Positions 10,517-37,955 of a stretch of DNA of 39,428 nt are shown one piece after another; the first letter of the stretch is position 1; every line of letters begins with the position of its first letter. The notes beneath the pieces are model-generated. The model was given only the letters and a program-made list of their open reading frames with translations. It was not told the origin of the DNA and made no database searches. The position numbers and the translations under genes are program-made. Source of the stretch: Candidatus Poribacteria bacterium. GTDB lineage: Bacteria; Poribacteria; WGA-4E; WGA-3G. The stretch is from NCBI GenBank assembly GCA_022821495.1, contig JAJEDN010000045.1, positions 1-39,428 of the forward strand, written 5' to 3'.

Positions 10517-10849
10517 TCAAACGCCTGAGACAAAATAGACAAGCGTTATTGTTCCACCGCGCCAAGTAACGACCAATAAAAGGAGATCGCCAACAAAGGG
10601 GCCCGTAATAGTCACCACGTTCCCAATGACTGTCAGAGTTCCAGCACTTGACGCAACATTCTCAGGCTGCCCGTTAAAAAGGAGAACAATACTCGCACTT
10701 GAAGTAATCGACGAACCGTTCGGTGGGATTGCACTCAAGAATGCAACTGCCCCGTCCTCGTTTTCAACATACGCATCTTCGCGACCGCAACCCACAAGGA
10801 TACACATAGCAAGTGAAGCTATAAATAGCGACATCCAGAATTTTCTCAT
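10517..10849 (-). CDS. Lipoprotein with a single Ig-like module
   Basis: 110 residues from ATG 10849. A TTG at 10867 that overlaps the upstream TGA is an alternative that would couple translation to the glycosidase. The N-terminus (MRKFWMSLFIASLAM, then CILVGCG) is a lipoprotein signal with a lipobox-like LVGC. The mature part is one beta-sandwich-type module: FLSAIPPNGS, SIVLLFNGQPENV, VVTITGPF, LLLVVTW and TLVYFV. It matches, strand for strand, the five tandem repeats of the large thioredoxin-fused protein at 33139-35202 (compare SITGPF, LALTVTW and TLDYTV). It is probably anchored at the inner or outer membrane; its role is unknown. It lies directly downstream of the GH36-like gene and ends in TGA. 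Confidence 0.7.
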   Translation of the reverse strand: MRKFWMSLFIASLAMCILVGCGREDAYVENEDGAVAFLSAIPPNGSSITSSASIVLLFNGQPENVASSAGTLTVIGNVVTITGPFVGDLLLLVVTWRGGTITLVYFVSGV

Positions 10850-32229: not shown

Positions 32230-32290
32230 TCTCCAGATTCCCCCCTGATAAGGGGGTGTTTTTGCTGGGGTGTTTCCCCTAGGGGGGTTG
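32230..32290 (-). repeat. CCCCCTGATAAGGGGG repeat, inverted copy
   Basis: CCCCCTGATAAGGGGG at 32240-32255 is the reverse complement of the core found at 32448-32463. A degenerate partner, TTTCCCCTAGGGGGGTTG, follows at 32273-32290. This is the opposite orientation to the two copies 150-200 bases downstream, as in a miniature inverted-repeat element. Confidence 0.55.
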
Positions 32291-32386
32291 TACCGATTAA
32301 GGTGTCCAATTAATTATGGATTTCACTATAAAATTCGCAATAAAATTCATAGGACTTACCCAAAAAGCAGCAATTTCGGTATTTTT

Positions 32387-32469
32387 AACCCCCTAAATCC
32401 CCCTTATCAAGGGGACTTACAATGCCCGATGGAAGAAACCCCCTAAATCCCCCTTATCAGGGGGACTTT
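32387..32469 (+). repeat. Two direct copies of an AACCCCCTAAATCCCCCTTA repeat
   Basis: Copies at 32387-32419 and 32437-32469 share AACCCCCTAAATCCCCCTTA followed by TCA, a base that differs, GGGGACTT and A, and start 50 bases apart. The same family is known as interspersed repeats in other bacteria. They could act as transcription stops between the convergent genes. Confidence 0.65.
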
Positions 32470-32494
32470 AAGAGTAAACTTGTAAATCCGATCT

Positions 32495-33103
32495 CTATTC
32501 AGTCTCTTCAATTCCCAAGATGCCGAGAATATTTTCTACCAACTTAGCACTTGGCATCGCGCCTACAAACCTGTCTATCATCTCACCATCTTTAAACACA
32601 ATATAGGTAGGCGTTCCGCGTATGTGATACGCAACTGTTTTTTCGGGTTGGGTGTTCACATCCAATCTGGCGAAAGTGAAGGTATCCCGATATTCTAATG
32701 CGACCGCTGTGACCACAGGCTTCATCAGTATACAGTATATTCAGAAATCGGATTTGAATTCTACGACAATCGGGAGTTCGGAACCGAGAACAATATCGTC
32801 GAAAGTAGCATCGGTGACTTCAAGAGGGATACCGGATGTTTTACCGAAGAAACTTGCCACAAGCACCAAATCAAGAATGTTGACGATGTCATCTCTATTG
32901 ATGTCTGGATTGGGAACCTGATCTTCGGTGGGCATCGCACCCAAGTGTGAAGCAATGAATGTTAAATCGAGGATATTCACGAAGCCATCAGCGTTGATAT
33001 CGGAGGCACTCCGAGCATCAAAATCTTCATCTTCGGCGTAACTCGTTATCAAAAATCCGAGTGCCAAACTTAATGTTAGCAATGAATAGATCAATCTTTT
33101 CAT
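32495..33103 (-). CDS. Secreted dockerin-thioredoxin selenoprotein (UxxC), copy B
   Basis: 202 residues if UGA 32741-32743 is read as selenocysteine (residue 121). AAGGA precedes ATG 33103. Order: signal peptide 1-23 (MKRLIYSLLTLSLALGF, cut near SYA); two dockerin-type calcium repeats at 34-55 (DINADGFVNILDL) and 67-87 (the second loop less regular, DINRDDIVNILDL); then a thioredoxin fold: ELPIVVEFKSDF, U121-I-Y-C124, MKPVVTAVALEYRD, and the cis-proline in GTPTYIVF. The UGA replaces exactly the first Cys of CxxC. Without recoding, the product would be a useless 120-residue stump. It is 35 bases downstream of the paralogous gene A. A secreted thiol/selenol oxidoreductase is inferred. The machinery genes (selABCD) are not in the window. 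Confidence 0.8.
32707..32718 (-). promoter_or_regulatory. Candidate bacterial SECIS hairpin, gene B
   Basis: CTGT-GGTC-ACAG forms a perfect 4-bp stem with a GGUC loop, 27-30 bases after the UGA. E. coli fdhF, the reference SECIS element bound by SelB, also presents GGUC at its apical loop, about 19-22 bases after its UGA. The lower stem here is imperfect. It lies within the coding sequence, as bacterial SECIS elements do. Confidence 0.5.
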
Positions 33104-33138
33104 ACGATTTGTTCCTTAGACCCTATACGATTTACGCC

Positions 33139-35202
33139 TTAATTTCCTTCAACGTCTATAGCGTTAAGAACGTTCTGGACAAACACATCCTTCGGTGTCT
33201 CGCGTACGAAACGCTCAACTAACTCCCCATCTTGGAATACAAGATAAGTAGGGTGCCCTCTAACCTGATATTTTTGGCTTGTTTTCGGATTGTCAATTGC
33301 ATTCAATTTCGCGACGATAAATGTGTCCTTGTACTCTAAAGCAATTTCGGCGACAACTGGCGCCATTCTTTGGCAGAACGGTCAGCCATCCTTATAGAAG
33401 TCAACCACAATAGGAATCTCAGACGCAAGCACAACGGTATCAAAGTCCGCATCGGTGACTTCAATGGGGATGCCGTCGTATGCACTGGCAGTGACAAAAG
33501 TAATGCTGATATCGGTTTCGTTGCCAGCAGCGTCTTCAACTTTTCCAGCAATAACGTACGAGGTTTCAGGATCAAGTTCCTTACCTTTGACGAGTTCAAG
33601 CGTCGCTTTGTTGCCTTCAACTTTGCCGATCCATCCGACATCATCGCCGCCTTCGAGTTGCAGAGTAATATTGCCGCTTACCTCTTCGCTGAACACAATT
33701 TCAATCAGCGCACTACTACTATCAACACCTTCCGCTCCATCACTGATAGTTCCACTGGTGATCGAAGGTGCCTCGGTGTCCGGTTCGGCGACCTCGTACG
33801 TAAATTCCAAGCTTCCATCTGCCCAAGTAACTACCAACTTAAGCGTCCCGGGGGTAAAAGGACCTGTGATTGACACAGTATTATCCGTGATTGTCGCCAC
33901 ACCTTCATTGACTGTAACATCCTTTGGTGGATTGTCAAACGTCAGGGTAATAGTATCGTCCACCTTAAGCTGTGTCTCAACTGTAGGATCTATGTTCTCT
34001 AACAACACAAGTTGACGGATAGTGTAGTTAAGCGTTTCGGAACCGTCTGCCCAAGTAATCGTCAACGCAAGCGCGCCCGGCGTGAACGGTCCGGTAATTG
34101 TCACTGTATTATCCGTGGTGATACCAACGCCTTCACTGACCGTAACATCCTCCGGTGGATGATCAAATGTCAGCGTGATACTATCGTTCATGGTAATCTC
34201 CGTCCCAGTTGCAGGCTCCACAGTTTCCAAAGCCGCAGATTGACGGACGGTGTAGTTGAGTGTTTCGGAACCATCTGCCCAAGTGATTGTTAATTCAAGC
34301 GTCCCAACGGTGAAAGGTCCAGCGATTGACACGGTATTATCCGTGATTGTTGCTACACCTTCATTGACTGTAACGTCTTCGGGTGGATGATCAAACGTCA
34401 GGATGATACTATCATGCGTGGTAATTTCCGAGTCGGCTGCTGGCTCGACACTCACGAAGTCCGCAGGTTGACGGACGGTATAATTGAGCGTTTCAGAACC
34501 GTCTGCCCAAGTAATGGTCAACGCAAGCGTGCCAGGTATGAAGGGGCCTGTGATTGACACGGTATTATTCGTGATTGTTGCCACACCTTCACTGACCGTA
34601 ACATCTTCCGGTGGATGATCAAACGTCAAGGTAATACTATCATCCGGGATAAGTTCCGAACTGATCTCTGGTTCTGCACTCACGAAGTTCGCAGGCTGAC
34701 GGACGGTATAGTCAAGCGTTTGGGAACCATCTGCCCAAGTGACTGTTAACGCAAGCGTACCGGGTGTGAAGGGACCTGTGATTGACACAGTATTATCCGT
34801 GATTGTTGCCACACCTTCGCTGACTGTAACGTCTTCGGGTGGGTTGTCAAACGTCAAGGTGATACTATCGTTCACGGTAACCTCAGCGTCAACTGCCGGA
34901 TCCACACTCACGAACGCCACAGGCGGCTTAACAGTTTCACCAATATAGCTTGCGACAAGGACTAAGTCAAGGATATTGACCGTACCATCGCCGTTGATAT
35001 CTGGGTTTACGGTTTGATCTTCTGTAGGTGTCTCGCCCAGGAATCCAGCGACCAGCACCAGATCAAGGATGTTTATCATCCCGTCAGCATTAACATCAGC
35101 CGCCCTCAAGGTGTCAATATCCGTCTCTTCTTCAGCGTAACCGGCTGTTAAAACAGATAGTGCTAAACTTAGTGTTAGCAACGAACAAATCAATTTTTTC
35201 AT
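33139..35202 (-). CDS. Secreted dockerin/Ig-repeat/thioredoxin selenoprotein (UxxC), copy A
   Basis: 687 residues if UGA 33382-33384 is read as selenocysteine (residue 607). ATG 35202 was chosen because AGGAG lies 8 bases upstream and it starts a signal peptide (MKKLICSLLTLSLALSVLTA). Order: two dockerin-type repeats at about 35-56 and 68-88 (DVNADGMINILDL; DINGDGTVNILDL); five Ig-like repeats of about 76 residues (97 to about 477); an SbsA-type Ig domain (about 478-580: ITSGTISDGAEGVDSSS, ETSYVIAGKVEDAAGNET); then a thioredoxin fold with EIPIVVDFYKDG, U607-P-F-C610, QRMAPVVAEIALEYKD and the cis-proline in GHPTYLVF. Only the first Cys codon of CxxC is replaced by UGA. UGA serves as a normal stop elsewhere here (10517, 10864). 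Probably extracytoplasmic; the partner is unknown. Confidence 0.8.
33349..33364 (-). promoter_or_regulatory. Candidate bacterial SECIS hairpin, gene A
   Basis: GGCG and CGCC pair around the loop CCAGUUGU, 22-29 bases after the UGA. AAU and AUU may extend the stem with a GAA bulge. An inner C-G pair would leave AGUU as apical loop, with a G in its second position. The position is right for a bacterial SECIS; the sequence is less like the fdhF element than that of gene B. Confidence 0.4.
33775..34914 (-). repeat. Five tandem 228-bp repeats encoding Ig-like modules
   Basis: Five in-frame units of about 76 codons in gene A, each with an FVSVEP-type start, SITLTFDHPPEDVTVSEGV, TDNTVSITGPF, LALTITWADGSETLNYTVRQ. 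The DNA is highly similar between units, implying recent duplication or homogenisation; unit number may vary between strains. Confidence 0.85.
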
Positions 35203-37019: not shown

Positions 37020-37955
37020 TTAACGGCGGGCAAGATTGCCGCCGTAATGATTTTCCAAGATGTATTTATAAGCCTGTTCGGAGAGTCTTCGCAAGATATA
37101 AGAGCGCCGATTCTTCCAAGTAAAAAAAGATTGCCACCGATTTCTTGTGTTTGTCTTTGTCCTATCCTCAATCATTCCGATGAAAATATAGGGTCTCGAT
37201 CTACCTTTCGGATCTGGGAAAACCAACACACCGCCGTCCCCTACAAGCCCATAGACGGTTCCCGTTTTGTTGTAAACCGCTACTGAAGCCGGAATGTAGG
37301 TTTGCTTGAAGATATAATCTCCGTTTTTGAGTTTAAAGTACCACTTCATTTTCTCCGAATGGGGCAGTTTTCCTTGCCACAATTTGAGGAAAAAGGTACT
37401 CAGATCGCGCGCCGAAGTCATGTTCTTATAGGTGCGTCCGCCGTACGGAATACGTTCCACAATCCGAGTCTGCTTAAAATACGGATAATTGCTTTTCAGT
37501 ATCCGATTCACCTTTGCTGGTCCGCCAAGCAGCCGAATAAAATAGTTGGTCTCAGCATTTGAACTCCACTGAATCATTGCCCGGAGTTTACCTTTGTTAA
37601 CATCGGTATGCCTTTGCCGCCCATATTTAACCTCGTGGAAATAGGCGAGCATAACAAAGTTCTTAATGAGCGAGGCTGCCATCATCTGTCGATCTTCGTT
37701 GATCGATACTAATTTTTTATCTTTTGAAATATCGTAGACGACGAAACTTGTCCGATCTGTTGTTGCCAAAACGCGCCGACTCCGCCGGCTTTTGATATAG
37801 CGTTCAAAATCAGCTTCCAAAGGCGAATCAATCGTACTTTGGTATTTGCGCGGAATATTCCGGTACGTTCCCGCTGCCGATATAAATATCGGAAGCAAAA
37901 ACGAGAGGCTACAACAGACTAAAAGTGGGACTAATTTCGTTGTACGTCTAAGCAT
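37020..37955 (-). CDS. Class A beta-lactamase-like serine hydrolase, exported
   Basis: 311 residues; AAGGA lies about 8 bases before ATG 37955. A signal peptide (about 1-28, ending SAAG) leads to a penicilloyl-serine transferase fold. All three active-site motifs are visible: S95-L-I-K98 in AASLIKNF, S131-S-N133 in WSSNAETN, and K230-T-G232 in YNKTGTVYGLVGD. An omega-loop glutamate like E166 is not obvious, so beta-lactam hydrolysis is uncertain; a peptidase or esterase role in the envelope is equally possible. Basic C-terminus. First gene of a tight minus-strand group with the unknown and MtaA-like genes. Confidence 0.82.
   Translation of the reverse strand: MLRRTTKLVPLLVCCSLSFLLPIFISAAGTYRNIPRKYQSTIDSPLEADFERYIKSRRSRRVLATTDRTSFVVYDISKDKKLVSINEDRQMMAASLIKNFVMLAYFHEVKYGRQRHTDVNKGKLRAMIQWSSNAETNYFIRLLGGPAKVNRILKSNYPYFKQTRIVERIPYGGRTYKNMTSARDLSTFFLKLWQGKLPHSEKMKWYFKLKNGDYIFKQTYIPASVAVYNKTGTVYGLVGDGGVLVFPDPKGRSRPYIFIGMIEDRTKTNTRNRWQSFFTWKNRRSYILRRLSEQAYKYILENHYGGNLARR

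Follow-up and report, generated by a model that had tools for sequence, protein, structure and literature searches.

Thioredoxins of the Pfam family PF00085 in which selenocysteine (Sec, U) replaces the first cysteine of the CxxC active site (UxxC) are a listed prokaryotic selenoprotein family in the excerpted text of PMC9312934 and PMC13188914, and the excerpts of the latter, a 2026 review, describe thioredoxins as small oxidoreductases. The same excerpts name other Sec thiol oxidoreductases, among them DsbG-like proteins and a thiol:disulfide interchange protein (PMC9312934) and DsbA-like proteins (PMC13188914), as well as selenoprotein operons, namely grdA-grdB, Prx with a SelW-like protein, and Tso (PMC13188914). 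Here we describe a tandem pair of paralogous genes in a 39,428-nucleotide (nt) stretch of DNA from the uncultured Candidatus Poribacteria (GenBank assembly GCA_022821495.1, contig JAJEDN010000045.1, positions 1 to 39,428; hereafter the window), from a phylum of sponge symbionts (PMC5649159, in part). Each gene encodes a dockerin and a thioredoxin domain with a single in-frame UGA at the first active-site codon, and we conclude that these UGAs are very probably decoded as Sec by the organism's own SelB and tRNA-Sec, yielding two predicted exported selenothioredoxins.

Like the described UxxC thioredoxins, the locus belongs to PF00085, has predicted Sec where CxxC has its first Cys, and occurs with the bacterial Sec machinery; a selenocysteine insertion sequence (SECIS), a feature of those systems, is here predicted right after the UGA. 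It differs in that the thioredoxin is the C-terminal domain of a predicted exported dockerin protein (with immunoglobulin (Ig)-like repeats in gene 1), and in that the genes form a tandem pair. Dsb families probably work outside the cytoplasm, and the Dsb-type Sec proteins resemble ours in this probable location, in their thioredoxin-type fold, and, for the DsbG-like and thiol:disulfide interchange proteins, in the UxxC motif, but the domain found here fits PF00085 best (PF13098 is likewise over its cut-off). As in the selenoprotein operons named above, (predicted) selenoprotein genes are adjacent, but here they are paralogues rather than members of a single known pathway. The dockerins share calcium-loop repeats and a PF00404 match over cut-off with cellulosomal type I modules, but the passenger is a redox domain. 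Poribacteria are not mentioned in the main text of PMC9312934 or PMC13188914, and no description of an exported, dockerin-linked tandem Sec thioredoxin was found among the titles and abstract openings of the open-licence papers that our searches brought up. The thioredoxin domain and UxxC Sec chemistry are known, and what we have not found described is the phylum, the exported dockerin/Ig architecture, and the tandem arrangement.

The features that carry the argument are these:

33139 to 35202, minus strand: gene 1, predicted selenothioredoxin, ATG at 35202 to TAA, 687 residues, Sec607 (UPFC)
32495 to 33103, minus strand: gene 2, predicted selenothioredoxin, ATG at 33103 to TAG, 202 residues, Sec121 (UIYC)
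33382 to 33384, minus strand: gene 1 UGA, predicted Sec codon, TGA in same-genus alleles
32741 to 32743, minus strand: gene 2 UGA, predicted Sec codon, TGA in intact same-genus alleles
33169 to 33465, minus strand: gene 1 thioredoxin domain, residues 580-678, PF00085 74.2 bits (cut-off 23.5)
32528 to 32824, minus strand: gene 2 thioredoxin domain, residues 94-192, PF00085 69.8 bits (cut-off 23.5)

We favor Sec because i) none of the intact same-genus alleles read departs from the UGA or the second Cys; ii) Cys occupies the position in some sister-genus alleles and in every database relative that extends to it; iii) the sequence past the UGA is under purifying selection; and iv) the genome encodes SelA, SelB, and tRNA-Sec. 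The UxxC selenoprotein reading had been proposed in an original prediction made from the letters of the window, and the conservation, the Cys homologs, and the machinery all support it. That prediction had placed the two UGAs at 33382-33384 and 32741-32743, at the first CxxC position, with the second Cys, an MxPVV helix, and the cis-proline strand intact downstream. All of this is confirmed, on the minus strand: each TGA is the sole in-frame stop between ATG and terminal stop, the second Cys, MxPVV, and cis-Pro (HP/TP) all lie in frame past it in both genes, and on read-through both products match PF00085 over cut-off in its UxxC form, the active site opening with the UGA codon and Cys following at +3. 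Genes 1 and 2 are also the only frames to emerge from a scan of the whole window for one internal TGA that is preceded and followed by 40 codons or more, with less than 25% overlap by main open reading frames (ORFs) in other frames.

UGA was also said to act as an ordinary stop at 10517 and 10864, and so it does; both are TGA, and 7 of the 32 main window ORFs end this way. Because TGA serves as terminal stop in those ORFs and in 10 of 71 of the gene-1 and gene-2 alleles themselves, the codon is read by context and is not recoded throughout. The further argument that two independent nonsense mutations would be very unlikely carries less weight than it was given: the genes are tandem paralogues, and the two UGAs are not independent events. 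Since the genes are paralogues, and only one copy occurs at the locus in the fetched sister-genus stretches, the evidential weight lies in conservation across species.

Stretches were fetched for this comparison in two sets, 40 and then 20 more. Across 38 same-genus genomes, the window's included, TGA with Cys at +3 is found in every intact gene-2 allele (37 of 37, made up of 35 plus 2 further; 16 belong to clade A, that of the window, and 21 to clade B) and in 38 of 38 gene-1 alleles (36 plus 2 further). These counts leave out L067, where gene 2 is cut by an insertion element, and a spurious gene-1 row from L097 with its UGA at the gene end, and they include L090 as gene 1, although no flanking gene was located there; genome G027 yielded no gene 2 and G033 no gene 1, and the gene-1 copies of L072 and L076 have their dockerin and thioredoxin parts in different frames as assembled. 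The two residues between U and C vary (IY, PF, IF, GF, VF, SF, and RF in gene 2; PF, PS, HF, LF, and PT in gene 1). At the same locus, sister genus g18 has TGC (Cys) in 2 of 2 genomes, and of the 14 loci fetched from sister genus g19, 13 carry TGA and one carries TGT (Cys); four of the 18 g19 genomes (G066, G067, G071, and G075) had no match assigned to the locus, and no stretch was fetched from them. These Cys alleles are L132, L133, and L134, and selB is retained over cut-off in the g18 genomes and in the g19 Cys genome. Neither TAA nor TAG was seen at the position in the alleles read; the homolog comparison called for by the original prediction returned Cys or UGA in the homologs read.

Among 39 genus loci, the URO-D and BatA/VWA genes are both present as flanks in 28, one of them in 10 (several of these interrupted by contig ends), and neither in L090; both g18 loci have both flanks, and the BatA/VWA flank is present at the 14 g19 loci. 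Between URO-D and BatA/VWA, the two paralogues stand in swapped order among genus genomes (L062-L098). In the one genome whose gene 2 is cut, the insertion element lies 12 bases past the UGA, and the left half keeps its TGA; the element (L067:5204-6226, L129:3103-4114) sits between the UGA and the predicted hairpin.

A database search with the gene-2 protein found 230 proteins, and the analysis covers the 120 of them that were listed. Cys stands at the UGA position in all 24 relatives that reach it, and of the 96 that do not, 93 end at the residue just before it, as expected from the earlier claim that gene callers would cut the protein at the UGA. Scanning named genome contigs for the gene-2 thioredoxin domain gave 30 loci. 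Of these, 25 have titles naming Poribacteria, with 88-91% identity in the best four, and the remaining 5 come from other phyla and are 32-38% identical. In a tree of 94 thioredoxin domains (Sec entered as Cys; gene 1 represented by 8 of its 36 rows plus L148 and L149), the Sec/Cys label must change 9 times, at least 7 of these on well-supported branches; the columns are few, the support values rough, and the bootstrap not settled.

Downstream decay had been named as a sign that would speak against Sec, and purifying selection was found instead. Measured over 38 codons after the UGA and against the window's own sequence, the ratio of nonsynonymous to synonymous differences (pN/pS) in gene 2 is 0.19 before and 0.24 after the UGA, with pN below pS in 34 of 34 pairs after it; in gene 1 it is 0.36 before and 0.56 after, with pN below pS in 34 of 35 pairs, and synonymous change itself is held down after the UGA (pS 0.352 vs 0.487 before). 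The sequence downstream of the UGA is under purifying selection.

Sec insertion also calls for machinery. The source genome, a 5.37 Mb draft in 133 contigs that is 94.7% complete, encodes a tRNA-Sec with anticodon UCA (77.5 bits, cut-off 47) adjoining selB (343.8 bits, cut-off 242.25), and selA (607.9 bits, cut-off 267.9); as controls, 5, 2, and 1 of 14 named genomes pass the tRNA-Sec, selB, and selA cut-offs, respectively. Of 60 genomes searched, 54 carry a tRNA-Sec over cut-off (32 of 36 in the genus); selD likewise passes in 54 of 60, including 34 of the 35 other same-genus genomes. All 54 of these selD matches contain one in-frame TGA (six were fetched, L056-L061), so SelD is itself a predicted selenoprotein here. 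One selB-model match elsewhere (G030:C60:28085-28639), translation-factor-like, also has one in-frame TGA, which could be a sequencing error.

Bacterial SECIS elements, according to the excerpted PMC13188914, have a G in the first two loop positions, lie 16-37 nt away, and have a minimum free energy of -7.5 kcal/mol or lower. Two hairpins are placed in the window:

33349 to 33364, minus strand: gene 1 predicted SECIS hairpin, GGCG/CGCC stem around CCAGUUGU, from comparison across relatives
32707 to 32718, minus strand: gene 2 candidate SECIS hairpin, CTGT-GGTC-ACAG, a candidate only

In gene 1, codons +7 to +12 show zero synonymous change among 36 alleles (identity 1.00, vs roughly 0.3-0.8 at most others), and the GGNG/CNCC stem that they form is paired in 99.3% of cells, its variable pair appearing as C-G, U-G, U-A, and A-U; its covariation score was matched by 0 of 500 shuffles, and RNAalifold places an inner loop AGUU 23 nt past the UGA. 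For gene 2, clade B and the sister genus have in common a stem of six pairs with loop GGU, also 23 nt past the UGA (21 clade B and 13 sister-genus rows, 34 in all and 31 distinct, the window's clade A being excluded), where 93.0% of cells are paired, 20 cells are changed on both sides, and the covariation score of 0.268 was matched by 0 of 500 shuffles; with the partners slid by 1-3 columns, no more than 75.3% are paired and the score is 0.062. Three Cys alleles keep 3, 3, and 2 of the six pairs. The relatives' hairpins (gene 1, and gene 2 of clade B and the sister genus) thus have the loop and the distance described in PMC13188914 as excerpted. Folding all 35 gene-2 rows jointly gave weak structure with zero pairs changed on both sides; because clades A and B differ, we treated them separately. 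For the CTGT/ACAG stem of clade A, observed covariation equals shuffled, in an uninformative set (16 rows, 11 distinct, 97% identical).

Several observations weigh against the Sec reading or the hairpins proposed for it. No selD over cut-off was found in the draft genome of the window, an absence that we assume to be an assembly gap, and 4 of 36 same-genus genomes, each of them with the UGA genes, have no tRNA-Sec over cut-off; since those four have selD (4 of 4) and selB over cut-off (3 of 4), assembly gaps are indicated there too. The recommended search for Sec machinery accordingly came out for selA, selB, and tRNA-Sec but not for selD. The stems were picked by eye, and relatedness is not preserved in the shuffles. 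More conservative measures are weak: the number of pairs changed on both sides was as high in 395 of 500 shuffles for gene 1 and 444 of 500 for the gene-2 six-pair stem, and pair types in 20 and 22 of 500. The gene 1 stem varies at only 1 of 4 pairs and is still 98.6% paired when slid by 3 columns; the window's own clade A (16 rows) keeps 4 of 6 pairs of the six-pair stem in each row; and the window sequences folded alone are no stabler than shuffles (z -0.62/0.96 and -0.81/0.09), the proposed hairpins not being favored in single-sequence folds of the window genes.

The best selD match in the window's own genome (95.6 bits, cut-off 125) was rejected: by sequence it is an AIR-synthase-like protein that lacks, by eye, the N-terminal Cys/Sec loop that we take to be the SelD motif.

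The dockerins, the Ig-like repeats, and the predicted export were absent from the original prediction. The remaining domains are as follows:

35134 to 35202, minus strand: gene 1 predicted type I signal peptide (MKKLICSLLTLSLALSVLTAGYA), judged by eye
34942 to 35100, minus strand: gene 1 dockerin type I, residues 35-87, PF00404 44.1 bits (cut-off 22.9)
33781 to 34926, minus strand: gene 1 five Ig-like repeats of about 76 residues each, counted by eye
33490 to 33780, minus strand: gene 1 Big_5 Ig-like domain, residues 475-571, PF13205 67.1 bits
33035 to 33103, minus strand: gene 2 predicted type I signal peptide (MKRLIYSLLTLSLALGFLITSYA), judged by eye
32855 to 33004, minus strand: gene 2 dockerin type I, residues 34-83, PF00404 36.1 bits

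By eye, the dockerins contain two D-x-N-x-D-G-like calcium-loop repeats. Modeled with Cys in place of Sec, gene 2 adopts a thioredoxin fold (block predicted local distance difference test (pLDDT) 91-96 over residues 91-200) with residue 121 just ahead of helix 2 (residues 122-137), and all 50 PDB matches listed by Foldseek are thioredoxins or thioredoxin fusions, with a TM-score by target of about 0.9. The gene 1 model is beta-rich over residues 101-470 (block pLDDT 84-94) and of low confidence in the dockerin and thioredoxin parts. Both proteins miss the cut-off of TIGR01068, the classic thioredoxin equivalog (66.2 and 66.5 bits vs 96.8). The genome also encodes a DsbD_TM protein (176.8 bits) and 8 cohesin matches over cut-off. 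Seven of the eight cohesin proteins scanned have one cohesin stretch each (one just under cut-off), and cohesin and dockerin occur in one chain in at least 5 of the 8 (with 25 of 61 families listed for the eighth). Since most of these cohesins have a dockerin in their own protein, a cellulosome-like tether remains a lead only. Four of the five cohesin plus dockerin chains carry an FlgD-type domain and three carry LRR repeats (L153-L159).

On the favored reading, SelA and SelD would charge tRNA-Sec, which SelB would deliver to the UGA, with a SECIS hairpin right after the codon directing insertion; the signal peptide would export the protein, and the dockerin might anchor it to the surface or to a partner protein, outside the cytoplasm. 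There the Sec selenolate would attack disulfides or oxidized thiols, the UxxC Cys (Cys124 in gene 2) would resolve the selenenylsulfide, and the DsbD-like membrane protein is a possible reductant.

Other explanations of the UGA must account for the same evidence. Decay into pseudogenes by an ordinary nonsense mutation seems to us scarcely credible: gene callers do stop there (93 of the 96 non-reaching proteins), and gene 2 of one genome is interrupted by an insertion element, but the UGA is present in every intact gene-2 allele (37 of 37), every gene-1 allele (38 of 38), and 13 of the 14 fetched g19 loci, and what follows it is under purifying selection. If a suppressor tRNA inserted a different amino acid at the UGA, for example Cys or Trp, this would fit with Cys being the only other residue seen at the position; such decoding is nonetheless highly improbable, given that UGA terminates other genes and 10 of 71 of these, that the genome encodes selA, selB, and tRNA-Sec(UCA), and that relatives have a covarying hairpin past the UGA. 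We also think it very unlikely that UGA is mostly a real stop with Sec insertion partial, in which case a short exported protein with the dockerin would be the main product and the complete thioredoxin would appear only when selenium is plentiful. UGA decoding does compete with release in known systems, and the whole dockerin module precedes the UGA, but constraint on gene 2 after the UGA nearly equals that before (pN/pS 0.24 vs 0.19) and the Cys-bearing database relatives, 24 in all, are complete proteins, so that it is the full product that is selected.

A different question is what a Sec thioredoxin would do. Sec could be inserted and yet serve a disulfide isomerase or oxidase in the folding of exported proteins, rather than a reductant against oxidants, a role that we consider possible though rather unlikely. 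The residue before Sec is T, F, R, or S in gene 2 and not the usual Trp (35 of 35 alleles), and is Trp in 12 of 36 gene-1 alleles; the xx pair of UxxC varies; and PDI- and Dsb-like proteins work on the exported side, where these proteins are predicted to go. Set against this, the top scores, although under cut-off, come from TrxA/TrxC/TIGR01068-type models, the PDI domain model scores lower, and a DsbD-type protein, usually the source of reductant, is present.

The genus has a third type of UGA-thioredoxin, with UGFC or UGAC (L100:3964-4281 in the window's own genome, L101:3683-4162, L150:2730-3047, and L151:7923-8240); that of L101 is a predicted lipoprotein (lipobox by eye), and L101, L150, and L151 have a CPFC Cys paralogue several kb off. 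An extra CPPC thioredoxin domain lies in a long frame on the far side of the URO-D gene at L097:1870-2202. In the window, the stretch that separates gene 2 from the BatA/VWA gene contains short repeats of type CCCCCTGATAAGGGGGATTTAGGGGG (32240-32500), and a Beta-lactamase2-domain protein (74 bits) is encoded at 37023-37955, near the locus in many genus loci and in both g18 loci.

A wider reading, speculative and in our view unlikely, is that Poribacteria display Sec thioredoxins on their surface by dockerin-cohesin pairing, forming a host-facing extracellular selenium redox system that is Sec-only throughout the genus while sister genera swap to Cys. If true, it would supply one concrete cargo for the Sec machinery reported to be enriched in sponge symbionts. 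The locus in any case offers candidate selenoproteins behind that enrichment, for which the passage reporting it names none: predicted exported selenothioredoxins that are genus-wide and shortened in databases; and the repeated exchange of Sec and Cys at one syntenic locus, even where SelB is kept, provides a clean natural comparison for why Sec persists at an active site.

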